Assembly: GCA_016209635.1 (NCBI GenBank)
Contig: JACQWC010000151.1
Coordinates: 1-36,743 of the forward strand
Length of the DNA: 36,743 nt
Reading direction: 5' to 3'
Source of the DNA: Candidatus Rokuibacteriota bacterium
GTDB taxonomy: Bacteria; Methylomirabilota; Methylomirabilia; Rokubacteriales; CSP1-6
Shown here: in pieces, positions 23,454 through 35,368 of the stretch
Position numbering within the stretch: position 1 is the first letter of the stretch
How the letters are laid out: the number at the start of each line of letters is the position of its first letter
The notes under the pieces: generated by a model
Database searches by the model: none
The model's input: only the letters and a program-made list of their open reading frames with translations
Told to the model about the DNA's origin: nothing
Position numbers and translations under genes: made by a program

Positions 23454-23470
23454 TCGGGTATGATACCCGA
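23454..23470. promoter_or_regulatory. Perfect 17-bp palindrome over a start codon (GntR operator candidate)
   Basis: TCGGGTAT-G-ATACCCGA has 8-base arms around one central base and contains the ATG at 23460. It contains a GT-ATGAT-AC core that fits the (N)yGT(N)xACy(N) pattern of GntR-family operators, and a GntR/FCD regulator lies downstream in the same cluster. Either a repressor site just after the promoter or an mRNA hairpin covering the start codon would lower expression. Confidence 0.55.
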
Positions 23471-24077
23471 GGAGTTCGTCCCGAGCGGAATCCGTCTGAG
23501 ACTGGGGCCGATCCTCCGCTTCCAGCGCTACCGGAGCGTGGAGGCGGTCGCGCCCCCGATCCTGGAGGTTGCCCAGGAGATGACGACCCTCGCCGAGAAG
23601 CTCGTCGATCCGCGCGTCGTCTGGCTCCGGCGCCCGATCGCGAGGGTGGGCGGCGACAGCCTCACCCTCGAGAACGGCCCGACCTTCGGGGGCCGCTGCT
23701 TCTCGACCCACCTCGCCATGGCGGGGGAGGCGGTGTGCTTCGTCGCCACCATCGGCCCGGCCCTCGACGCGCGCGCGGCGGAGCTGACCGACGGGAACGA
23801 TCTCCTCGAGGCCCTCTTCCTCGACACGGCGGGGTGGCTCGCCATCGAGGAGACGCTCCGGGTCTTCCGCGCCCGTCTGCGGGCGCGCGTCCGGGGTGAG
23901 GGGCTGCGTCTGAGCCCGCGCCTCGGTCCCGGATACCTCGACTGGCCGCTCGGCGAGCAGGCGTCGTTCTTCCCGCTCTTCGACGGGACGCCGCTGCCGG
24001 TGGGGCTCAGCGAGTACTGCGTCATGACGCCGAAGAAGTCGATCTCGGGGCTCTTCGGACTCACCCCGGCCGGCTAG
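23460..24077 (+). CDS. Stand-alone MetH reactivation-domain-like protein
   Basis: This 205-residue protein resembles the C-terminal SAM-binding reactivation domain of cobalamin-dependent methionine synthase (MetH). RLSPRLGPGY (150-159) matches the Arg-Pro-Gly-Tyr motif that binds SAM in MetH, and LSEYCVMTPKKSISG (183-197) matches the LTES-x-MxP-x-SVSG segment. It would help return oxidised Co(II) corrinoid to the active form, probably on the separate corrinoid proteins encoded downstream. The start codon lies inside the palindrome described separately and has no good ribosome site. No other domain is attached. Confidence 0.85.
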   Translation: MIPEEFVPSGIRLRLGPILRFQRYRSVEAVAPPILEVAQEMTTLAEKLVDPRVVWLRRPIARVGGDSLTLENGPTFGGRCFSTHLAMAGEAVCFVATIGPALDARAAELTDGNDLLEALFLDTAGWLAIEETLRVFRARLRARVRGEGLRLSPRLGPGYLDWPLGEQASFFPLFDGTPLPVGLSEYCVMTPKKSISGLFGLTPAG

Positions 24078-24086
24078 GAGAGGACG

Positions 24087-25670
24087 ATGGAGGCGCCGCG
24101 CCACTCGAACGAGCTCCGACGACGACTCTCCGGCGGCGAGTGGGTCGTGTCGATCGAGTTCGTCACCCCCGAGGCGTCCGAGGAGTTCGAGGGCGCCATC
24201 GCGCCGATCGTGGCGCTGGGCGAGCGGAGCAAGGGCGACCCGCGGATCCACACGATCGCGCTGACCGACCGCGTGAAGTCCGATGACGACCACGACCCCG
24301 TGCGCGTCGCCCGGCGCGTCGCGGAGGCGTCGGGGAAGGCGCCGACGGTGCACCTCTCGGGCAAGGACCGGGATCCCGCGTGGCTCGCCGACGCGCTCGG
24401 GCGGATGCGGGAGGCCGGCCTCGAGAACCTGCTCCTGATCACCGGCGACAAGGTGAAGAGTCCAGGAAGCCACGGGCGCGTCCGCTACCACGACTCGGTC
24501 AACATGATCGCGCAGGCCCGCGCCGCGAGCCCCGCGTTCCACATCGCCGCGGCGGTCTCGCCCTTCAAGTACCGCGAGGAAGACCTCCTGAACCAGTATC
24601 TGAAGATGGTGAAGAAGGAGCGGGCCGGGGCCGGTTGCTTCATCACCCAGGTCGGCTGGGACATGCTCAAGTGGAAGGAGCTCCTCGCGTACCGGCGCCG
24701 GCGCGGCCTCCGGGCGCCGGTCATGGCCGGGCTCATGCTGCTGACCGTCGCGCGCGCCCGCTTCATCCGGGCGAACCGGCTCGCCGGGATCACGATCACC
24801 GACGAGCTCCAGGCCCGGCTCGAGGCCGACGCGACGCTCGCCGACAAGGGTCTGGGGGCCGCCTACCGGCGGCTCGCGCTCCAGATCGTCGGGCTCAAGC
24901 GGCTCGGCTATGCCGGGTTCCAGCTCACGGGCATGCACCAGTTCGAGAAGGTCGACGGGCTGCTCCGGCAGGCGGAGGACCTCGAGCGCCAGCTCCCCAC
25001 GGAGTCGGCCTGGTGGGAAGCGTGGTGGGAGGCGCTCCGGGGCCCCGAGGGCCGCCCGATCGCGACCGCGCCCGCCCGACCCTTCTATCTCTTCCGCGAG
25101 CACGCCGAGCCCGGCGGCGCGAGCGTCGCCCTCGACCGACTGACGCCGCGCGCGCTCGACCCGGACGCCACCCCGCGCGCCGAGCTGCGGACGTTCCGGG
25201 CGCTCGATGGGCTGGACCGCGCGGTGTTCCGCGAGGGCTCGCCGGGGAACGTGGTCCTCGGGCCGATCTCCCGACTGGTCCCTCGCGGGTCGGTCCTCGA
25301 TCGCGGGCTCCACTGGCTCGAGCGGCAGGTCAAGGCGCCCCTGGTCGGGTGCGAGACGTGCGGCTTCTGCCGACTCCCGTACACGATGTACGTCTGCCCC
25401 GAGACGTGCCCGAAGGGGCTCGCCAACGGCCCCTGCGGCGGCACGAGCGAGAACACGTGCGAGTTCGGCGACCGCGAGTGCGTCCACAACCGGAAGTACC
25501 GCGTGGCGAAGGCGACCGGGCGGCTCGACGAGCTGGAGACGGTGCTGATTCCCGTGGTAGGCTCCACCAAGCGCCACACATGCTCCTGGACCAGCCATTT
25601 CCGCGGAGAGGATCCGCCCGTCGTCAACCTCCTCCCCATTCGCCCGAAGGGACTCCAGCATGACCATTGA
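24087..25670 (+). CDS. metF: Methylenetetrahydrofolate reductase with C-terminal MTHFR_C domain
   Basis: This 527-residue protein has a MetF-type flavin TIM barrel (about 1-310). It keeps Glu24 in VVSIEF, at the place of the catalytic Glu, and Asp121 in LITGD. The C-terminal part (about 415-505) is the MTHFR_C type cysteine-rich domain, with Cys422, 425, 428, 437, 441, 450, 458, 465 and 499. In acetogens this part is similar to the separate metal-binding partner MetV. It interconverts methyl- and methylene-tetrahydrofolate. In this cluster it likely oxidises methyl-THF made by the next gene, or works in reverse. GGAGAGGA precedes the ATG, and the 3' end overlaps the next gene by 11 bases. Confidence 0.9.
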   Translation: MEAPRHSNELRRRLSGGEWVVSIEFVTPEASEEFEGAIAPIVALGERSKGDPRIHTIALTDRVKSDDDHDPVRVARRVAEASGKAPTVHLSGKDRDPAWLADALGRMREAGLENLLLITGDKVKSPGSHGRVRYHDSVNMIAQARAASPAFHIAAAVSPFKYREEDLLNQYLKMVKKERAGAGCFITQVGWDMLKWKELLAYRRRRGLRAPVMAGLMLLTVARARFIRANRLAGITITDELQARLEADATLADKGLGAAYRRLALQIVGLKRLGYAGFQLTGMHQFEKVDGLLRQAEDLERQLPTESAWWEAWWEALRGPEGRPIATAPARPFYLFREHAEPGGASVALDRLTPRALDPDATPRAELRTFRALDGLDRAVFREGSPGNVVLGPISRLVPRGSVLDRGLHWLERQVKAPLVGCETCGFCRLPYTMYVCPETCPKGLANGPCGGTSENTCEFGDRECVHNRKYRVAKATGRLDELETVLIPVVGSTKRHTCSWTSHFRGEDPPVVNLLPIRPKGLQHDH

Positions 25671-26640
25671 GCATCAGGGACTGATCGTCATCGGCGAGAA
25701 CCTGAACGCGACCCGGAAGATCAAGGGCTCGAGCCCCCGGATCCTCAAGGAGGACGGCCGGCGCGGCCTCCCCTATACGGACCTCTCGGGGACCAAGCGG
25801 GTCCTCGACCTCACCGCGGCCTTCCCCGAGGACCCCAAGGAGCACGCGAACGCGATGATCCCGTACGTCGCGCAGTGCTTCCGCGACAAGGACCTGCGCT
25901 ACCTCGAGTGGCAGGTGCACTCGCAGCTCAAGGCCGGCGCCCACATCATCGACCTCTGCGTCGACGAGATGTCCCCGTACCCCGAGGAGCGGATGGAGTG
26001 GATACGCTGGGTCGTCAAGGCCGTCCAGGCGATGACCGGCGCCATCCTCAGCATCGATTCGTCCGACCCGCTGACGATCGAGGCGGGCCTCAAGGTCCAC
26101 GACGGGAAGAAGAGCCGGCCGTTCATCAACTCGGTGAACCTCGAGGAGGGGCGGAGCGTGCTCCACGCGGTGGCCAAGGAGCACGGCGCGTACCTGGCCG
26201 GTAACGCGTCCGGGCGGTCCGGGATGCCGTACAGCGCGCAGGAGCGCGTCGACAATCTGGTCGAGCTGTCCAAGCAGATGGACGCGCACGGGATCCCGAT
26301 GGAGGACCGGTTCCTCGACGCGCTCGTCTTCCCCGTCGGCGCCGGGCCCGAGTACGGCATGCACTACCTCGACGCCGTCAGGCACCTGCGCGAGATGTTC
26401 CCCGAGGTGCACCTCTTCGGCGGCCACTCGAACGTCTCGTTCGGACTCCCGAACCGCAAGGTGCTGAACGACGCGTTCATCATCCTGTCGATCCTGGCCG
26501 GCTGCGACACGGTCATGGCCGATCCCCTGATGAACCCGCCGCGCGAGTACCTCGAGTTCAGGCTCGCCGCGGAGGCGCTCACCGGGAAGGACGATTACTC
26601 GATGAACTACCTCGCCTACCACCGGAGCCAGCAGGCGTAG
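25660..26640 (+). CDS. Methyltetrahydrofolate:corrinoid methyltransferase (pterin-binding, AcsE/MetH-like)
   Basis: This 326-residue pterin-binding TIM barrel moves a methyl group between a corrinoid protein and tetrahydrofolate (methyltransferase 2). Signatures are GENLNATRK (12-20), HIIDLCVDEM (95-104), LSIDSSDP (130-137), PFINSVN (154-160) and GGHSNVSFGLPNR (254-266), where the Ser-Asn segment contacts the pterin in MetH and AcsE. It corresponds to the second module of MetH. It overlaps metF by 11 bases, so the two are coupled. A dihydropteroate synthase is unlikely because of the SNVSFGLP motif and the context. Confidence 0.93.
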   Translation: MTIEHQGLIVIGENLNATRKIKGSSPRILKEDGRRGLPYTDLSGTKRVLDLTAAFPEDPKEHANAMIPYVAQCFRDKDLRYLEWQVHSQLKAGAHIIDLCVDEMSPYPEERMEWIRWVVKAVQAMTGAILSIDSSDPLTIEAGLKVHDGKKSRPFINSVNLEEGRSVLHAVAKEHGAYLAGNASGRSGMPYSAQERVDNLVELSKQMDAHGIPMEDRFLDALVFPVGAGPEYGMHYLDAVRHLREMFPEVHLFGGHSNVSFGLPNRKVLNDAFIILSILAGCDTVMADPLMNPPREYLEFRLAAEALTGKDDYSMNYLAYHRSQQA

Positions 26641-26643
26641 CGC

Positions 26644-27633
26644 ATGCTATACTCGACCGCCATGACGGGCCTGCTCGAGCGCTTGTCGACGCGCACGCCG
26701 CTGCTCACGGACAGCGCGACCGGCACGTGGTTCCAGCAGCGCCTCGGCGTCCAGCACGTCGGCGGCGAGTGCTGCGACCAGTACAACCTGACGCAGCCCG
26801 ACGTCGTCCGCGAGCTGTACCGCGCCAAGGTGGATGCGGGCGCGGATCTCGTCCTCACCAACACCTTCAACAGCACGCCGCTCCGTCTCCGCGAGTTCGA
26901 CCTCGAGGACGAGGCGGATCGGTTCAACGACGCGGGCGTGCGGCTCCTCCGCGAGGTCGTGGCCGAGTCCGGGCGCGAGGTCTTCGTCGGCGGGAACGTC
27001 GGACCCACGGGGAAGCTCGTGGGGCAGTCGGCGACCTACGACGAGGTGATGGACTCCGTGCTCCGCCAGGTCCGGGCGCTGGTGCGCGCCGGCGTCGACG
27101 CGATCTGCGTCGAGACCATGCTCCAGTCGCTCGAGGGGCAGATCGCGGTCGAGGCGGCGCGTCAGGTCTTCGCCGACGAGGGCGTGTCGGTGCCGCTCTA
27201 CGTGACGTTCGCCTTCATGAATCGGCCGGCGGCCAGCACGGCCGAGTTCCGGACCTTCTTCGGGGACACGGTGCGCCAGATCATGGAGGGGAACGAGGAC
27301 CTCCTGGCCGAGCGCCCGTTCGTCGGCGTCCGGCAGCTCGGCGTGGACGTGGTCGGCGCCAACTGCACGATCGGCGTCGACGACGCGGTGGCCGTGACCG
27401 AGGAGTTCACCCGCTACCTCGTCGCCCACGGCCTCGCGGGCCGCATGTGGGTGTCCGCCAAGCCGAACTCGCAGGTGATGGCCACGATGCAGTACGAGGA
27501 ACCCGAGTTCGTCGCCGCCAGGTTCGCGCGCTTCGTCGAGGCGGGCGCGCACTTCGTCGGGTACTGCTGCGGCTCGACGCCCGCGCACATCGCGGCGACG
27601 GCGCGCCAGCGGCGGGCCCTGCTCGGCTTCTAG
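26644..27633 (+). CDS. Homocysteine S-methyltransferase-type protein (MetH module 1-like)
   Basis: This 329-residue barrel belongs to the homocysteine methyltransferase family. Zinc ligands are all present: Cys241 in VGANC and Cys308-Cys309 in GYCCGSTP. The N-terminus LLTDSATGTWFQQ and GECCDQYNLTQPDVV also fit the family. It corresponds to the first module of MetH and would move a corrinoid methyl group onto homocysteine or a related thiol. The ATG at 26644 is used; the ATG at 26662 (MTGLLERL) is an equal alternative, with neither having a good ribosome site. No B12 or pterin domain is attached. Confidence 0.9.
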   Translation: MLYSTAMTGLLERLSTRTPLLTDSATGTWFQQRLGVQHVGGECCDQYNLTQPDVVRELYRAKVDAGADLVLTNTFNSTPLRLREFDLEDEADRFNDAGVRLLREVVAESGREVFVGGNVGPTGKLVGQSATYDEVMDSVLRQVRALVRAGVDAICVETMLQSLEGQIAVEAARQVFADEGVSVPLYVTFAFMNRPAASTAEFRTFFGDTVRQIMEGNEDLLAERPFVGVRQLGVDVVGANCTIGVDDAVAVTEEFTRYLVAHGLAGRMWVSAKPNSQVMATMQYEEPEFVAARFARFVEAGAHFVGYCCGSTPAHIAATARQRRALLGF

Positions 27634-27730: not shown

Positions 27731-28900
27731 ATGAACGAGCTCAGGCCTCGCGAACGGTTCGCGCGCGCCATCCGGCGCGAGAAGGTCGACCGCGTGCCGA
27801 CGCTGTACCGCTTCAAGCGCGAGTCCAAGGAGAAGGCGGCCCGCGTCTTCGGGATCACCGACGCCGAGGTCGGCCTCAAGCACGCGCCGCACCTCGAGCT
27901 CAGGCTCGGGAACGACGCCATCATGTACCAGATCGGCATCAACGCCGAGTTCTCGCACCACCCGATCGCGATCGGCGAGACCTGGTACAGCGACTTCAAG
28001 GTCGCGTACGGCAAGAGCGGTCTCAAGGGCCTGTCGGAGGAGGAGCACAGGGAGTTCATGAAGACCCAGGAGTACTGGGGACCGGCCAAGGTGGTCCCCG
28101 AGAACTTCCCGAAGGCCCACCCCATCGGCTCGATGGAGGACCTCAAGAACTACACGTGGCCGAGCCCGGCGAACCCGCGGCTCCTCGACCCGATCAAGGA
28201 GATCTGCCGGCACTACCAGGACGACTACTTCATCATGGTCGATCTCTCCTCCACCCTGATCGAGGCGGCGTACGCGCACCTCGTCGGGACCCAGAACTTC
28301 TTCCTGTTCCTCTACGACGAGCCGGAGCTGGTCCGGGGCGTGCTGGACGGGCTCACCGAGTACTACTGCGCGCTCGGGAGGAACGTCGCCGCCCTCGGCG
28401 TCGACATGATCCGGGTCGGCGACGACATCGGCGCCCAGCAGGGGATGATGCTCGACCCCGAGGTGTGGCGGGAGCTGGCCAAGCCCCGCTTCCAGTACAT
28501 GTTCGAGCAGTTCCGGAAGGTCAACCGGGACGTCTACCTCAAGCTCCACTCGTGCGGCGACTACTCACCGATCATTCCCGACGAGATCGACCTCGGGGTG
28601 AATCTCTCCGGGCTCATGCAGCCGGTCGGCGGCAACCGGAACCAGACGGAGATCAAGAAGAAGTACGGCGACAAGATCGCCTTCATCGGCGGTCTCGACG
28701 TGCAGCGGCTCCTGCCCCGCGGCCAGGTCGAGGAGGTGCGGGCGGGGGTGCTGAACGTCATGAAGAATCTGGCCGTGGGCGGTGGCTACATCTTCTCGCC
28801 GTCGCACTACATCCTGGCCGACGTCCCCGTCCAGAACATCTGGGCGATGATCGAGGCGGTGAAGGATTTCGGCGTGTACGGCAAGTATCCGCTGAACTAG
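27731..28900 (+). CDS. UroD-family methyltransferase, module 1
   Basis: This 389-residue protein belongs to the uroporphyrinogen decarboxylase-like superfamily that includes methyltransferases MtaA/MtbA and O-demethylase methyltransferases. The zinc motif His273-x-Cys275 (KLHSCGDYSP) is present. The later Cys ligand of MtaA/MtbA is absent; the site reads SPSH (356-359). It should transfer a methyl group between a small substrate and the corrinoid protein encoded next. The ATG follows GGGGAGAGGA. Because true UroD lacks the HxC motif, a heme role is unlikely. The substrate (methoxy-aromatic, methylamine, methylthiol or other) cannot be told. Confidence 0.88.
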   Translation: MNELRPRERFARAIRREKVDRVPTLYRFKRESKEKAARVFGITDAEVGLKHAPHLELRLGNDAIMYQIGINAEFSHHPIAIGETWYSDFKVAYGKSGLKGLSEEEHREFMKTQEYWGPAKVVPENFPKAHPIGSMEDLKNYTWPSPANPRLLDPIKEICRHYQDDYFIMVDLSSTLIEAAYAHLVGTQNFFLFLYDEPELVRGVLDGLTEYYCALGRNVAALGVDMIRVGDDIGAQQGMMLDPEVWRELAKPRFQYMFEQFRKVNRDVYLKLHSCGDYSPIIPDEIDLGVNLSGLMQPVGGNRNQTEIKKKYGDKIAFIGGLDVQRLLPRGQVEEVRAGVLNVMKNLAVGGGYIFSPSHYILADVPVQNIWAMIEAVKDFGVYGKYPLN

Positions 28901-28914
28901 AGGGAGAGCGTCGT

Positions 28915-29625
28915 ATGTCCAACGGGCCGAGTCTTCAGATGCCCGACGGCTGGCAGACGCGCGTGCCGCCAGGATGGGACTGGAGCGAGCTCTGGGTCGC
29001 AGTCGAGAAGGGCAAGCACAAGGTCGCCCACGAGATCGTGCAGAAGGCGATCGACACCGGCATCAACCCCAAGACGATTCTCGACGACGGTCTCTTCCCC
29101 GGGTTCAATCTCCAGGGCGAGCGGTTCAGCGAGCAGATCATCTTCATCCCCGAGATGCTGATCACGGCGCGGGCGATGAAGGCAGGGCTCGCCCTCATCC
29201 GCCCCCTCCTCGCCGCGCAGGCGGAGAAGCCGGTGGGCACCTTCGTGATCGGCACCGTGCTCGGCGACATGCACGACATCGGCCAGTCGATCGTGACGAT
29301 CATGCTCGAGAACGCCGGCTTCAAGGTCCTGAACCTCGGGACCGACACCCACCCCGACAAGTTCATCAACACCGCGCGCGCCGAGAAGGCCGACCTCGTG
29401 GGGTTCTCGGCGCTGCTCTCGACGACCATCTACTACCAGAAGGTGACCATCGAGGAGTTCGTCAAGGCGGGGCTGCGGAACAAGGTGAAGATCCTGGTCG
29501 GCGGCGCGCCCACGAGCCAGCAGTGGGCGGATGAGATCGGCGCCGACGGCTGGGGCAAGGACGCGATGCTCGCCGTGCAGCTCGCGAAGAAGCTCGTCAA
29601 CGAGCCTCGCGAGCCCTGGGACTGA
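28915..29625 (+). CDS. Corrinoid protein, module 1 (MtaC/MtbC/MetH B12 type)
   Basis: This 236-residue methyl-carrier has the helical cap (about 25-100, with FIPEMLITARAMKAG) and the Rossmann B12 domain with Asp118-x-His120-x2-Gly123 (GDMHDIG), where His120 is the lower cobalt ligand. SALLST (165-170) and GGAPTS (196-201) are further B12-binding loops. It starts 14 bases after the UroD-type gene with a good AGGGAGAG ribosome site. The N-terminal 25 residues are longer than in MtaC. It is the third module of a split MetH-like system or the carrier of a methyltransferase system. Confidence 0.95.
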   Translation: MSNGPSLQMPDGWQTRVPPGWDWSELWVAVEKGKHKVAHEIVQKAIDTGINPKTILDDGLFPGFNLQGERFSEQIIFIPEMLITARAMKAGLALIRPLLAAQAEKPVGTFVIGTVLGDMHDIGQSIVTIMLENAGFKVLNLGTDTHPDKFINTARAEKADLVGFSALLSTTIYYQKVTIEEFVKAGLRNKVKILVGGAPTSQQWADEIGADGWGKDAMLAVQLAKKLVNEPREPWD

Positions 29626-29628
29626 ACC

Positions 29629-30012
29629 ATGGACTTCATCCCCATCGCCCGAGTCGACGAGGTTCCCACCGGCGCGACGCGCCTCTTCGGGACCGACGGC
29701 GTGCGCGTTCTCCTGGCGCGCGTCGGCGACACCGTCCACGCCCTCCAGCCGACCTGCCCGCATCGCGGCTGCGACTGGGACGGGGCCGCGGTGCAGGACG
29801 AGATCATCACGTGTCCGCGCTGTCGCTTCCGCTACTCGGCGCGGACGGGACTGAACCCCCTCACGACCGCGTGCCACGTGAACCAGTCGACGGCGGAGTA
29901 CCACTATCGGAACTTCCCGGAGGGCCGCGCCGATCTCCACGCGGTGCGGCTCCGCGACGGGCGGGTCGAGGTGTCGGCCACGCCGCTGCCGTTCAGGAAA
30001 GTGATCGTCTGA
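29629..30012 (+). CDS. Rieske-like 2Fe-2S ferredoxin with C-x-H / C-x2-C ligands
   Basis: This 127-residue protein has the Rieske fold layout but an altered second ligand box. Box 1 is CPHRG (Cys43, His45). Box 2 is CPRC (Cys62, Cys65) where Rieske proteins have CPxH, so the expected ligand set is three Cys and one His, as in mitoNEET. The codon at Cys65 is TGT, so a simple misread of CAT would need two changes. The start lies three bases after the corrinoid gene, and the stop overlaps the activating-protein start (TGATG). It is a likely electron carrier for corrinoid reduction; a dioxygenase ferredoxin is less likely here. Confidence 0.85.
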   Translation: MDFIPIARVDEVPTGATRLFGTDGVRVLLARVGDTVHALQPTCPHRGCDWDGAAVQDEIITCPRCRFRYSARTGLNPLTTACHVNQSTAEYHYRNFPEGRADLHAVRLRDGRVEVSATPLPFRKVIV

Positions 30013-31901
30013 TGCCGGCGACGGTGGCGGTGACGTTCGAGCCCGAAGGGCGGACGATTCGTGTCGCCCCCGGGGAGACCTTCCTGCGCGCCGCCCAGGA
30101 CGCGGGAATCGACGTCATGGCCACCTGCGGGGGCCGCGGCCGATGCCACAGCTGCCGGATCAAGATCCTGAAGGGGACGGTGGCGCCGCCGACGATCATG
30201 GACACCGTGCAGCTCGGTCACGAGGAGGTCCGCGAGGGCTTCCGGCTGTCCTGCCAGACCCCCGTCGTCGAGGCCTGCGCGGTGATGGTCATGCCGCCGA
30301 TCGCGGAGGGAGGGCATCAGATCCTCTCGTGCGCCCACGACTTCCGCGCCGACTCGCGGGTCGGGCTCGACTCCGGGGTGGAGAAGCGGTTCGTCAAGGC
30401 CCGGCTGCCAGCGGAGGAGCACCACCAGACGTCGGACGTCGAGGAGACGCTCGCGGCGCTCGGCGGTGGGGCTGGCGAGGACGTCCCCCTCGACGTCCTG
30501 CGCCGGATCCCGACGCTGCTCCGGGAGGCCGACGGCGCCGTGACCGTCACGACCTTCCGGGGGAAGGTCATCGACGTCGAGTCGGAGGACACCTCGGCGC
30601 ACAAGTACGGGATGGCGTTCGACATCGGGACGACCAGCATCGTCGGGTTCCTGATGGACCTCGACACCGGCGAGCAGCTCGCCGCCGTGGGGAACCTGAA
30701 CCCCCAGGCGGTGTACGGCGGCGACCTCATGTCGCGCATCGCCTTCGCCCAGTTCAACCCGGAAGCCCTCAAGAAGCTCCAGGTCCGCGTGCTCGCCGCG
30801 ATCAACGCCCACGTCAAGGAGGCGTGCGACCAGGCGGGGGTCTCGCCCGCGCAGATCTACAAGGTGGTCATCGTCGGCAACACCTGCATGCACCACGTCT
30901 TCCTCGGGATCGACCCGACGCACGTCGGCCTGGCGCCCTACGCGCCCACGGTGCGATCCCCCATCGTCCTCCCGGCCAAGGAGCTCCACCTCCGCGTGAA
31001 CCCGAACGCGGCGGTCTGCTTCCTGCCCATCGTGGCTGGCTTCGTCGGCGCCGACACCATGGGCGTCATCCTCGCGACGCGCATCTACGACAGCCCCGAC
31101 ATCCGCGTGGCGGTCGATATCGGGACCAACGGCGAGGTCGTGATGGGCTCGCGCCGCCGGCTCATGGCGTGCTCCGCGCCCGCCGGCCCGGCCCTCGAGG
31201 GGGCGCAGATCAGGCACGGGATGCGGGGTGCCATGGGCGCGATCGAGAAGGTCGAGATCGGCGGCGACGTCGTCTGCTCGGTGATCGGCGCCGTCCCGCC
31301 GGTCGGGATCTGTGGCTCCGGGCTCATCGACGCCATCGCGAAGATGCTCGACGCGAAGGTGCTCGACTCGTCGGGCCTCCTCCGGGTGGAGGAGCGGGAT
31401 CTCCTGCCCTCCGCCATCCGCGACCGGCTGATCGAGCGCGACGGCGAACGGCAGTTCGTGCTCGTGTGGGCGCCCGAGTCCGGGAAGGGCGAGGACATCA
31501 CGATCACCCAGCAGGACGTCCGGCAGCTCCAGCTGGCCAAGGGCGCGATCTACTCCGGCATCCTCATGCTGGAGCAGGTGATGGGCGTGACGAACGGGCA
31601 GATCACGGAGCTGATGCTCGCCGGCGGCTTCGGGAACTACATCAACATCGCGAGCGCGGTCCGGATCCACCTCCTGCCCGAGCTGCCCGTGGAGCGGATC
31701 ACCTACGTCGGAAACGCCGCGGGCCTCGGGGCCCAGATGGCGCTCCTGAGCGAGACCGAGCGGGAGCGGGCGACCGCGCTGGCGCGCACGATCGAGCACG
31801 TCTCGCTCGCGGCCCGGCCGGACTTCCAGGACGTTTTCGTCGGGGCGATCTGCTTCCCCGGCGACGAGGCGGCCGGTCTCCTGCTCTCGGGAGCGGAGTG
31901 A
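30012..31901 (+). CDS. ATP-dependent corrinoid-activating protein (RACE family)
   Basis: This 629-residue protein has an N-terminal plant-type 2Fe-2S domain (Cys39-x5-Cys45-x2-Cys48, Cys81) and a C-terminal ASKHA ATPase part: FDIGTTSIVGFLMD near 205 and DIGTNGEVVMG near 370. Such RACE proteins use ATP to reduce inactive Co(II) corrinoid proteins to Co(I). It sits just after the Rieske-like ferredoxin and the corrinoid protein, which fits an electron chain to cobalt. The ATG at 30012 overlaps the previous stop by one base. It is unlike the archaeal RamA, which carries 4Fe-4S clusters. Confidence 0.93.
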   Translation: MPATVAVTFEPEGRTIRVAPGETFLRAAQDAGIDVMATCGGRGRCHSCRIKILKGTVAPPTIMDTVQLGHEEVREGFRLSCQTPVVEACAVMVMPPIAEGGHQILSCAHDFRADSRVGLDSGVEKRFVKARLPAEEHHQTSDVEETLAALGGGAGEDVPLDVLRRIPTLLREADGAVTVTTFRGKVIDVESEDTSAHKYGMAFDIGTTSIVGFLMDLDTGEQLAAVGNLNPQAVYGGDLMSRIAFAQFNPEALKKLQVRVLAAINAHVKEACDQAGVSPAQIYKVVIVGNTCMHHVFLGIDPTHVGLAPYAPTVRSPIVLPAKELHLRVNPNAAVCFLPIVAGFVGADTMGVILATRIYDSPDIRVAVDIGTNGEVVMGSRRRLMACSAPAGPALEGAQIRHGMRGAMGAIEKVEIGGDVVCSVIGAVPPVGICGSGLIDAIAKMLDAKVLDSSGLLRVEERDLLPSAIRDRLIERDGERQFVLVWAPESGKGEDITITQQDVRQLQLAKGAIYSGILMLEQVMGVTNGQITELMLAGGFGNYINIASAVRIHLLPELPVERITYVGNAAGLGAQMALLSETERERATALARTIEHVSLAARPDFQDVFVGAICFPGDEAAGLLLSGAE

Positions 31902-31902
31902 C

Positions 31903-32811
31903 GTGCGCGTCAACGTGATCTGCGGTTTCCTCGGCTCCGGCAAGACGACGCTCGTGCGCCGCATCCTCGGCGGCCGGGCCGGGAAGGAGCGGCTCGCGGT
32001 CATCGTCAACGAGTTCGGCGATGTCGGGATCGACGGGGAGATCTTGCAAGGACACGCGATCGACATGATCGAGCTGAGCGCCGGGTGCCTCTGCTGCACG
32101 CTCAAGGGATCTCTCGTGACCGCCGTCGAGGAGCTGCGCGACAAGGCGGGCGTCGAGCGGATCGTGATCGAGGCGACGGGCGTGGCTCAGCCCGGCGAGC
32201 TGGTGGAGGTGCTCGCGGACCCCGCGATCCGTGACTCCGTCGCGCTGGGTCCGCTGGTGACGGTGGTCGACGCGCCGAAGTTCCCCGCGCTCCGGAAGGT
32301 GCTGGGCGAGTTCTACACGGCGCAGGTGACGCGGGCCGGGGTGCTGCTGCTCAACAAGACCGATCTCGCGACGCCAGGCCAGCTCGACGGGGTGCGGCGC
32401 GAGGTGACGGCGCTGAACCCGCGGGCGACCGTGGTCGCGACGGAACGGTGTGACGTGGAGCTCGACATGGTGCTGGAAGGGGGTAGCCGGGCGCCAGAAC
32501 CGAGCGCGCTCGAGCAGGGGCTGGCGTCGCCGGCTCCGGCGGCGTCGTTCACGTCGTTCGTGGCGACGACGAGCTTCGACGCCGACCGGGCGAAGGTGAT
32601 TCGCTTCTTCGCCGGTCTGCCGGACGCCGTGGTCCGGGCGAAGGGCTTCATGACGATCGACGGCCAGCCGGCGCTGGTGCAGTACGCCGTCGGGCAGCTC
32701 GAGATCACGGGGGCGCCGAGCCCGCGCGCCATGAACCTGGTGTTCATCCTCAACGGCGACGGGGACCAGGCCGGCCTCAAGGCCCGCCTGAGCGAAACCG
32801 CACGCCCATGA
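31903..32811 (+). CDS. CobW/COG0523 GTPase metallochaperone
   Basis: This 302-residue GTPase shows Walker A GFLGSGKTT (8-16), the metal-binding CLCC (62-65), a Glu-Ala-Thr-Gly switch segment at 90-93 and the G4 motif NKTD (151-154). COG0523 proteins insert or deliver metals such as Zn, Co or Ni. In this place it could supply Zn to the methyltransferases or Co to corrinoids. The GTG start is two bases after the activating-protein stop, and the stop overlaps the regulator start. Confidence 0.9.
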   Translation: MRVNVICGFLGSGKTTLVRRILGGRAGKERLAVIVNEFGDVGIDGEILQGHAIDMIELSAGCLCCTLKGSLVTAVEELRDKAGVERIVIEATGVAQPGELVEVLADPAIRDSVALGPLVTVVDAPKFPALRKVLGEFYTAQVTRAGVLLLNKTDLATPGQLDGVRREVTALNPRATVVATERCDVELDMVLEGGSRAPEPSALEQGLASPAPAASFTSFVATTSFDADRAKVIRFFAGLPDAVVRAKGFMTIDGQPALVQYAVGQLEITGAPSPRAMNLVFILNGDGDQAGLKARLSETARP

Positions 32812-33452
32812 AGAGCAAGGCCCACGCGTCGCTGACGGAGAAGGCCTACCACACGCTGGTGCACAAGATCGTCACGCTCGATCTGGCGCCGGGCTCCGTC
32901 CTCACGGAGAGCCGGCTGATGAACGAGCTCAAGATCGGCCGGACACCGATCCGGGAGGCGGTCCAGCGGCTGATCGCCGAGGGACTGGTCAAGCACCTCC
33001 ACCACCGGGGGATGCTCGTCGAGGAGATCCGGGCGGCCGATGTCCAGCAGCTCTACGAGTTCCGCGCCGAGATCGAGGGGTACGCCGCCCGATTGGCGGC
33101 GATGCGCATGACGCCGGCGCAGGTCGAGGAGCTGCAGCGGATCCACGCGGGTATGGACCGCGCGCTGGCGGAGTCCGATATCGAGAGCTTCACCACCCAG
33201 GACCGCCAGTTCCACGAGCTCCTCGGGCATGGCTCCCAGAACGGCTACGTCCAGTCCGTCCTGGCGAACCTCTACAACCTGCACCTGCGCCTCTGGTATT
33301 ACCTCTTCCAGCGTCGGGGCGGCCTCCAGGAGACCGTGCACGAACACCAGGAGCTGATCGCGGCGCTCGTGCGGCGGGATCCCGACGGCTCCGAGCAGGC
33401 GATGAAGAAGTACGTGTCCCGGCTCGCGCGCGAGATCAAAGGGATCCTCTAG
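32808..33452 (+). CDS. GntR family regulator, FCD/FadR subfamily
   Basis: This 214-residue regulator has an N-terminal winged helix (about 8-70, with SRLMNELKIGRTPIREAVQR as recognition region) and a C-terminal FCD ligand-binding domain with Asp132-x3-His136, His159 and His180 as probable metal ligands. FCD proteins usually sense small carboxylates or related metabolites. Its ATG overlaps the metallochaperone stop (ATGA). It is the only regulator of the corrinoid cluster in the window, and the palindrome at 23454-23470 is its best operator candidate. Confidence 0.9.
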   Translation: MKSKAHASLTEKAYHTLVHKIVTLDLAPGSVLTESRLMNELKIGRTPIREAVQRLIAEGLVKHLHHRGMLVEEIRAADVQQLYEFRAEIEGYAARLAAMRMTPAQVEELQRIHAGMDRALAESDIESFTTQDRQFHELLGHGSQNGYVQSVLANLYNLHLRLWYYLFQRRGGLQETVHEHQELIAALVRRDPDGSEQAMKKYVSRLAREIKGIL

Positions 33453-33470: not shown

Positions 33471-34691
33471 ATGGCGACGAAGAAGCTGACGGGGCGCGAG
33501 CGGGTGAGGATGGCGCTCAACCACCAGGAGCCCGACCAGGTGCCGATGGACATCTGGATCACGCAGGACTCCTACGTGGCGCTCCGGCGGGAGCTGGGGC
33601 TGCCCCCGAAGGTGTCGAAGCCCTGGGACTGGCAGAACACGCCCAATGCCATCCGGACGGGATCGACGACGTGGTCGACGGATGCGCCCGTCGACCTCGA
33701 CGTGATCGAGAAGCTCGACCTCGACATGGTCCGCGTGCCGAGCTACCCGCCGAACGGCGGGCGCGGGTTCGTCTACCGCCCGGAGGACGAGCTCTACCTC
33801 GACGAGTGGGGCGTGCCCCACCACCGCGCCGAGTTCGAGACCGGGTACGGCGGCGCGCACTTCGAGATCCGGATCTACCCGCTCGCAGAGGCGACGATCC
33901 AGGATCTCGAAGACTACCCCTGGCCGGACCCACGAGACCCCTCCTTCCTGGGGGACCTCCCCGAGCTGATCCCGCGGCTCCGCCGGGAGACGCCGTACGC
34001 GATCCTGTCGCAGTTCGGGCGGGGCGGGATCTACGAGCAGGCGAAGTACCTGCGCGGCTTCGAGCAGATCTTCATCGACATGGCGATCGACCAGGAGTTC
34101 GTGCACGCGCTGTTCGCCAAGCTCCTCGAGATCGAGCTCGAGATGAACCGCATCGGCATCCAGGCGGTCGGGAAGTACCTCGACGTCCTCCGGTTGTCGC
34201 CGGAGGACCTGGGGACGCAGACGAGCACGCTCGTGTCGCCGCAGATCCACGAGGAGCTGGTGCGGCCCTACTACAAGCGCCGCTTCCACGAGGTCCGGCA
34301 GATGCTCGACGCCGTCGGCAACCACGAGTGCAAGATCATGTACCACTCCTGCGGCGCCGCGTACCCGATGATGCCGGGGTTGATCGAGGACGGCATGCAG
34401 GTGTTCGATCCGCTCCAGCCGCTCGAGGTGATCTCCGAGCCGTGGCGGCTGAAGCGGGATTTCGGCGAGCGGATCTCGTTCGTTGGCGGCATCAACGTCC
34501 AGTCGACCCTGCCGCGCGGCACCGCCGAGGATGTGCGCGCGGAAGTCCGCCAGCGGATCAAGGAGATGGCGCAGGGCGGCGGCTACATCCTCTCCCCGGC
34601 GCACCGCATGCTGCCGGACATTCCGTTCCGCAACATCAAGGCGATGTACGAGGCGGGTCGGGAAAATGGCACCTACCCCATCAACCTGTGA
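33471..34691 (+). CDS. UroD-family methyltransferase, module 2
   Basis: This 406-residue protein is a second UroD-like methyltransferase. His292-x-Cys294 (YHSCG) is the zinc motif, and the third ligand is not Cys (SPAH, 375-378), as in module 1. The central and C-terminal parts (GGINVQSTLPRGTAEDV, 339-355) match module 1, but the N-terminal half differs, so substrates are likely different. It is followed directly by its own corrinoid protein. GGGGGAGG lies five bases before the ATG. Confidence 0.88.
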   Translation: MATKKLTGRERVRMALNHQEPDQVPMDIWITQDSYVALRRELGLPPKVSKPWDWQNTPNAIRTGSTTWSTDAPVDLDVIEKLDLDMVRVPSYPPNGGRGFVYRPEDELYLDEWGVPHHRAEFETGYGGAHFEIRIYPLAEATIQDLEDYPWPDPRDPSFLGDLPELIPRLRRETPYAILSQFGRGGIYEQAKYLRGFEQIFIDMAIDQEFVHALFAKLLEIELEMNRIGIQAVGKYLDVLRLSPEDLGTQTSTLVSPQIHEELVRPYYKRRFHEVRQMLDAVGNHECKIMYHSCGAAYPMMPGLIEDGMQVFDPLQPLEVISEPWRLKRDFGERISFVGGINVQSTLPRGTAEDVRAEVRQRIKEMAQGGGYILSPAHRMLPDIPFRNIKAMYEAGRENGTYPINL

Positions 34692-34699
34692 GTGAGTCC

Positions 34700-35368
34700 A
34701 TGGACGAGAGAACGCTGCTCGAAACGCTGGCTTTCACGGTCATCAAGGGTCGGGTCAAGGAGGGGACGGCGCTGACGGAGCAGGCGATCGCCGTGGGCGT
34801 CGACGCGCACCTCGTGATCAACGAGGGGCTCGTGCCGGGCATGGACGTGGTCGGTGAGCTGTTCCGGACGAACCAGTACTTCATCCCCGAGGTCCTGCTG
34901 TCGGCGCGGACCATGAACGGCTCGATGGCGCTCCTGAAGCCGCTCATCGTCGGCGCGGTGACGGAGACGGTCGGCGTCGCCGTCGTGGGCACGGTCAAGG
35001 GCGACATCCACGACATCGGCAAGAACCTCGTCTGCATGCTGCTCGAGGCGGCGCAGTTCAAGGTGCACAACCTCGGCGTGAACAACACGCCGGAGAAAAT
35101 TTTCGAGGCGGCCGAGCAGCACGGCGCCGACATCGTCGGCCTGTCCGCTCTGCTGTCGGTGACCATGCCCAACATCGGCAAGACCGTGGAGCACTTCGAG
35201 AAGATGGGCGTCCGGAAGAAGTACAAGATCATCTGCGGCGGCGCGCCCGTGACGCCGAAGTTCGCGCAGGAGTGCGGCACCGACGGTTACGGCGCCAACG
35301 CGCCGGAGGCCGTGCGGATCTGCCGCCAGTGGATCGAGGAGAAGCGCGCGGCGGCCGCGTCCGCGTAG
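34700..35368 (+). CDS. Corrinoid protein, module 2
   Basis: This 222-residue corrinoid protein has the helical cap (FIPEVLLSARTMNG, 61-74) and B12 domain with Asp102-x-His104-x2-Gly107 (GDIHDIG). SALLSV and GGAPVT follow as in module 1. The ATG at 34700 is used; an in-frame GTG at 34688 overlaps the preceding stop and is an alternative, as no ribosome site is clear for either. It should carry methyl groups for methyltransferase module 2, and both corrinoid proteins could share the same pterin methyltransferase and activating protein. Confidence 0.95.
   Translation: MDERTLLETLAFTVIKGRVKEGTALTEQAIAVGVDAHLVINEGLVPGMDVVGELFRTNQYFIPEVLLSARTMNGSMALLKPLIVGAVTETVGVAVVGTVKGDIHDIGKNLVCMLLEAAQFKVHNLGVNNTPEKIFEAAEQHGADIVGLSALLSVTMPNIGKTVEHFEKMGVRKKYKIICGGAPVTPKFAQECGTDGYGANAPEAVRICRQWIEEKRAAAASA

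Follow-up and report, generated by a model that had tools for sequence, protein, structure and literature searches.

A Rieske-fold protein with a conserved His-to-Cys ligand change encoded beside a corrinoid activator in Candidatus Rokuibacteriota

Respiratory and dioxygenase Rieske centres have a 2Cys-2His ligand set and potentials between -150 and +400 mV (PMC11138216). In ARF of Sulfolobus solfataricus, the ligands are C42, H44, C61, and H64; the H64C change yields a low-potential 3Cys-1His [2Fe-2S] cluster, and the H44C variant failed to assemble a cluster (PMC2946596). A triple mutant of ARF has a mononuclear site, and the Rieske loops share the geometry of rubredoxin and zinc ribbons (PMC2946596). 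Because the 3Cys-1His centre of mitoNEET has a potential near 0 mV (PMC9737848), the ligand count alone does not set the potential and, by this analogy, a 3Cys-1His set does not in itself mean a low potential. The RACE-type activators of O-demethylases carry a [2Fe-2S] cluster at about -330 mV; with ATP, RACE raises the Co(II)/Co(I) potential of the corrinoid from -530 to -250 mV, and its electron donor is named only as 'e.g. ferredoxin or flavodoxin' (PMC6739815).

The stretch of DNA analysed here (the window; 36,743 nucleotides of a Candidatus Rokuibacteriota metagenome assembly) encodes a variant of the Rieske ligand set directly upstream of a RACE gene (Table 1). The open reading frame has an ATG start and a TGA stop, and its translation reads MDFIPIARV...CPHRGCDW...CPRCRFRYSARTGLNPLTTACHVNQSTAEYHYRNFPEGR...PFRKVIV. 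Its coding composition is normal (GC3-GC2 = 0.41), and around the gene there is no Rfam match and no promoter- or terminator-like site. Residues 4-74 match the Pfam Rieske family (PF00355, E 7.8e-9) above the curated cut-off. An AF2 model (mean pLDDT 87.4, pTM 0.82; 42 aligned window and locus sequences) is matched by Foldseek to PDB entries 5bok, 1fqt, and 3dqy with TM by target of 0.85-0.86. The best matches are the ferredoxins of 3-nitrotoluene (5bok), biphenyl (1fqt, 2e4q), toluene (3dqy), and carbazole dioxygenases, for which TM by target is mostly 0.8-0.86. The family match and the model thus uphold the Rieske-like fold named in the preliminary description of this DNA.

Translation and alignment also bear out that description's account of the two ligand boxes. 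The first (C43-P-H45-R-G-C48) has the C43 and H45 that are normal for Rieske proteins, and the second reads C62-P-R-C65, vs. CPxH in Rieske proteins. From the box-2 Cys to the Gly of RTG there are 13 residues (CPRCRFRYSARTG), as in canonical relatives (CPWHGWMYDVRTG); this equal spacing between box 2 and YxxRTG puts Cys65 at the second His ligand position without an indel. The protein therefore departs from the 2Cys-2His motif C-x-H...C-x2-H and, like both orthologues described below, has C-x-H...C-x2-C; in the Rieske fold, its full pattern is C-x-H-x16-C-x2-C (C43, H45, C62, C65). It is a Rieske-type ferredoxin by fold but not by the defining 2Cys-2His motif, and is classed as a variant rather than as an ordinary member. 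A Pfam scan of the protein detected no CDGSH domain, the CDGSH motif is absent from the sequence, and there is no match to an Rrf2 domain.

Table 1. Features of the Rieske-variant gene and of the surrounding gene cluster in the window.
Feature	Coordinates	Strand	Evidence and remarks
MetH-activation-like protein	23460-24077	+	1j6r, E 4e-7; no curated family match
MTHFR with C-terminal DUF5981 (MetF/MetV-like fusion; Cys-rich MetV-like C-terminus)	24087-25670	+	Pfam
Pterin-binding methyltransferase (methyl-THF:corrinoid type)	25660-26640	+	Pfam
Homocysteine S-methyltransferase family protein	26644-27633	+	Pfam
URO-D/MtaA-family methyltransferase A	27731-28900	+	Pfam; shares its 3/95 genomes with the Rieske variant
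Corrinoid protein A (MtgC/MtbC-like), 3 bases ahead of the Rieske-variant gene	28915-29625	+	
Rieske-fold protein, 127 aa, predicted 3Cys-1His ligand set	29629-30012	+	Translation, Pfam, orthologue alignment, AF2 model
Ligand box 1, CPHRGC (C43, H45; extra conserved C48)	29755-29772	+	Translation, orthologue alignment
Ligand box 2, CPRC (C62, C65); Cys replaces the Rieske His in 3/3 orthologues	29812-29823	+	Alignment, motif scan
Insert/linker after box 2, residues 77-96, with C82, H83, H92	29857-29916	+	Alignment, AF2 model
RACE (RACo family): Fer2 [2Fe-2S] domain (C39, C45, C48, C81), linker, ASKHA	30012-31901	+	Pfam; 3zyy, E 9.7e-111
CobW/COG0523-type GTPase	31903-32811	+	Directly after RACE, two genes downstream of the Rieske variant
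GntR/FCD regulator	32808-33452	+	
URO-D-family methyltransferase B	33471-34691	+	
Corrinoid protein B	34700-35368	+	

Two clear orthologues, each in another genus of the phylum, were found by a search of 95 genomes and of the genome contigs. One (L001, genome G046) is full length with 71% identity; the other (L002, genome G064) has 65% identity and is partial (residues 1-84), because its contig ends inside the gene. Position 65 is Cys in both (CPRC and CPHC), and C43, H45, C48, C62, C65, C82, and H83 are invariant across the three proteins, one of them this 84-residue fragment. Homologues with His at this place had been named as the observation that would speak against a genuine ligand change; among the true orthologues, alignment gives Cys in three of three. 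In residues 62-96, the window and L001 differ in 12 codons, all of them synonymous (dN 0, dS 0.72), and dN is 0.25 for residues 1-61. The genomes are metagenome assemblies, which would leave room for Cys65 as a sequencing error, a mark of a pseudogene, or an oddity of a single strain. Such an origin has next to no probability, given three independent assemblies from three genera that all specify Cys, through different synonymous codons (TGT/TGC), and the strong purifying selection on residues 62-96; error and pseudogene are rejected on these two grounds.

Across the phylum, 107 distinct Rieske domains were compared (108 distinct matches less one non-Rieske chance match). The aligned second ligand position is His in 104 and Cys in three, namely the Rieske variant and its two orthologues, so that the ligand change is a fixed property of one clade. 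The discarded match (L036) has no Rieske domain and is thus no further Cys case. Five one-residue BLAST misalignments were corrected by eye: four apparent Cys cases (L134, L144, L157, L167) are canonical CPCH proteins shifted by one gap, and a fifth (L147) has CPWH. The four CPCH proteins are small canonical Rieske proteins with CTHEDC...CPCH; they have the disulfide Cys pair of the respiratory type, yet the size of soluble ferredoxins. A chance origin of CPxC is rejected as well: a scan of the 95 genomes with a DNA motif for C-x-H-x-G-x14-C-P-x-C gave five matches, of which two (G021 and G027) lie outside the three orthologues and are zinc-ribbon-like proteins with CDHCGYRF...CPQC or CPRC. 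Beyond the phylum, the search covered exact 8-residue patterns of the Rieske variant in 84,980 species and gave two loci only; more distant orthologues may exist elsewhere. No orthologues were found on viral contigs; plasmids gave only ordinary Rieske/NifU-region matches, and the segment from box 2 to the C-terminus had no significant match there.

The spacing C-x-H-x16-C-x2-[H/C] is identical in the Rieske variant and ARF, and by this analogy the natural change falls at the position that tolerates Cys in ARF (H64). A 3Cys-1His [2Fe-2S] site on a Rieske scaffold, as predicted in the preliminary description, thus has a direct precedent in an engineered protein with this scaffold, and the parallel that it drew with mitoNEET holds for the ligand set only. 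Since CPxC is the classic zinc/rubredoxin knuckle, C43, H45, C62, and C65 might instead form a zinc or mononuclear iron site in the manner of a zinc ribbon or rubredoxin. The protein would then be structural or a metal carrier, for example for zinc-dependent URO-D-type methyltransferases, acting with the cluster-encoded CobW-type GTPase. The geometry shared by Rieske loops and rubredoxin/zinc ribbons, the mononuclear site of the ARF triple mutant, weak zinc-finger matches below threshold in residues 41-79, and the proximity of the GTPase gene all lend some weight to this alternative. We nevertheless regard it as unlikely: the mononuclear site in ARF took three changes, one of them a second loop-1 Cys at the place of R46 in the Rieske variant, and the single His-to-Cys change in ARF retained [2Fe-2S] (PMC2946596). 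Moreover, the zinc-family profile matches all fall below curated cut-offs, and of the two C-x2-C knuckles of a zinc ribbon or rubredoxin only loop 2 has one, loop 1 being C-x-H-x2-C.

Residues 77-96 form an insert that replaces a short loop of other Rieske ferredoxins and adds ~16-20 residues; it is identical in the window and L001, and is modelled as two helices at low confidence (pLDDT blocks 55-68). This conserved insert was overlooked in the preliminary description, as were C48, C82, and H83, which are as conserved as the ligand-box residues and may ligate the cluster or form a disulfide instead. A [2Fe-2S] cluster with other ligands (C48 or C82/H83, e.g. four Cys), or a redox-active disulfide near the cluster, would agree with the invariance of these three residues, with the position of C48 at the disulfide-Cys place of CTHxxC/CPCH-type Rieske proteins, and with the unchanged residues 62-96 in both full copies. 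However, H45 is likewise invariant, box 2 has R or H at position 64 in place of the usual disulfide partner, and the insert carrying C82 and H83 is poorly modelled, so that we judge such an arrangement improbable.

The gene cluster is rich in functions of methyl transfer (Table 1). The stop codon of the Rieske-variant gene overlaps the RACE start by one base (TGATG), in agreement with the overlap with a corrinoid activator that had been described. Gene order is the same in L001, and L002 keeps the upstream order as far as its contig end within the Rieske gene; the alignment of homologues, put forward as a check in the preliminary description, gave Cys in both. Methyltransferase A and the Rieske variant have an identical presence pattern across the genomes. 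Formate-THF ligase is encoded after corrinoid protein B in the operon, and the cluster has two pairs of URO-D methyltransferase and corrinoid protein, one on each side of the Rieske variant and RACE. The MetH-activation-like protein shows weak similarity to Met_synt_B12; together with the pterin-binding and homocysteine methyltransferases, it resembles a methionine synthase whose parts are encoded separately. No obvious reductase for the Rieske variant was seen among the window genes scanned.

The adjacent RACE has four Pfam domains above cut-off (Fer2, RACo linker, middle, and ASKHA) and is a full RACo-family protein with Fer2 intact. RACE homologues occur in 62 of the 95 genomes of the phylum. 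At the 28 loci examined outside the Rieske-variant cluster, no Rieske gene lies within 1.5 kb of RACE. Around seven unlinked loci viewed more widely, the other genes of the methyl-transfer cluster are missing, a distant AMP-ligase match (at L097) being the sole similarity to a cluster gene. The genomes of the window and of L001 each also encode an ordinary second RACE without a Rieske neighbour (L097, G000:C260; L098, G046:C259). This paralogue is widespread, with ~59% identity; it has no homologues of the cluster's corrinoid proteins, methyltransferases, or Rieske variant nearby, and its corrinoid partner is not evident. Residues 39-48 are CGGRGRCHSC in both Rieske-linked RACEs, with a His beside a cluster Cys, vs. 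CGGRGRCTSC (or that sequence truncated at the N-terminus) in the 28 unlinked ones; the His might be an adaptation in the Rieske-linked proteins.

Our tentative reading, to which we would give only a little less than an even chance, is that the protein is a low-potential 3Cys-1His [2Fe-2S] Rieske ferredoxin (C43, C62, C65, H45) that donates electrons to the Fer2 domain of RACE, for Co(II) to Co(I) reduction. The soluble ferredoxin would hold one iron by C43 and C62, as in Rieske proteins, and the second by H45 and C65; loss of the His would make the potential lower than that of a normal Rieske ferredoxin. In its reduced form it would be the electron source for the [2Fe-2S] domain (Fer2) of the RACE encoded immediately downstream; with ATP, this RACE would take the adjacent corrinoid protein(s) from Co(II) to Co(I), for use in a methyl-transfer pathway to tetrahydrofolate. 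The range of normal Rieske potentials is too positive for RACE, so a potential-lowering ligand change fits; given the spacing shared with ARF and a change at a tolerated position, a low-potential ferredoxin feeding RACE is the simplest mechanism. The reading draws on three orthologues, one of them partial, and the lack of a Rieske-type neighbour at most RACE genes argues against it, as does the absence of a reductase for the ferredoxin among the window genes scanned. A real 3Cys-1His ferredoxin might also have another partner (the MetH-activation-like protein or MTHFR/DUF5981) or be a sensor of redox state or oxygen. The two candidate partners both require electrons, but the Rieske-variant gene is flanked by those for a corrinoid protein and for RACE, and it is the RACE gene, not one of theirs, that it overlaps; we consider this alternative very doubtful. 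For the fuller proposal, a 3Cys-1His Rieske ferredoxin of natural origin that is the dedicated donor of an ATP-driven corrinoid activator, and with it the first natural counterpart of ARF H64C and a genetically marked RACE donor, the chances seem appreciable though distinctly short of even. If true, nature uses the same ligand exchange that was engineered for a lower Rieske potential, the protein shows how the Rieske scaffold can be retuned in evolution, and an electron donor can be named for a RACE protein, the donor being only surmised elsewhere (PMC6739815).

Among described systems, ARF H64C (Kounosu et al., 2004; reviewed in PMC2946596) is the closest match and a better precedent than mitoNEET: scaffold, spacing, and the single His-to-Cys change are all shared. 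ARF H64C is a laboratory variant, whereas the Rieske variant is natural, occurs in three genera in a corrinoid operon, and has extra conserved Cys and His residues. A search of mostly open-access literature returned no account of a His-to-Cys ligand change in a natural Rieske-fold protein, or of a Rieske protein beside RACE. With mitoNEET/CDGSH proteins and IscR, which are unrelated in sequence and fold, the Rieske variant shares the predicted 3Cys-1His ligand set alone. The neighbouring gene encodes a RACo/RACE activator of the full RACo-family type, for which a Rieske-type neighbour is not described in the literature found. The Rieske-type ferredoxins BphF, BphA3, CarAc, TodB, and T4moC share the fold, core size, box 1, box spacing, and C-terminal strand pair; the Rieske variant differs from them in the Cys for the box-2 His, the ~16-20-residue loop with C82/H83, and C48. 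Unlike the ferredoxins of ring-hydroxylating oxygenases, it adjoins RACE, and none of the cluster genes around it encodes an oxygenase.
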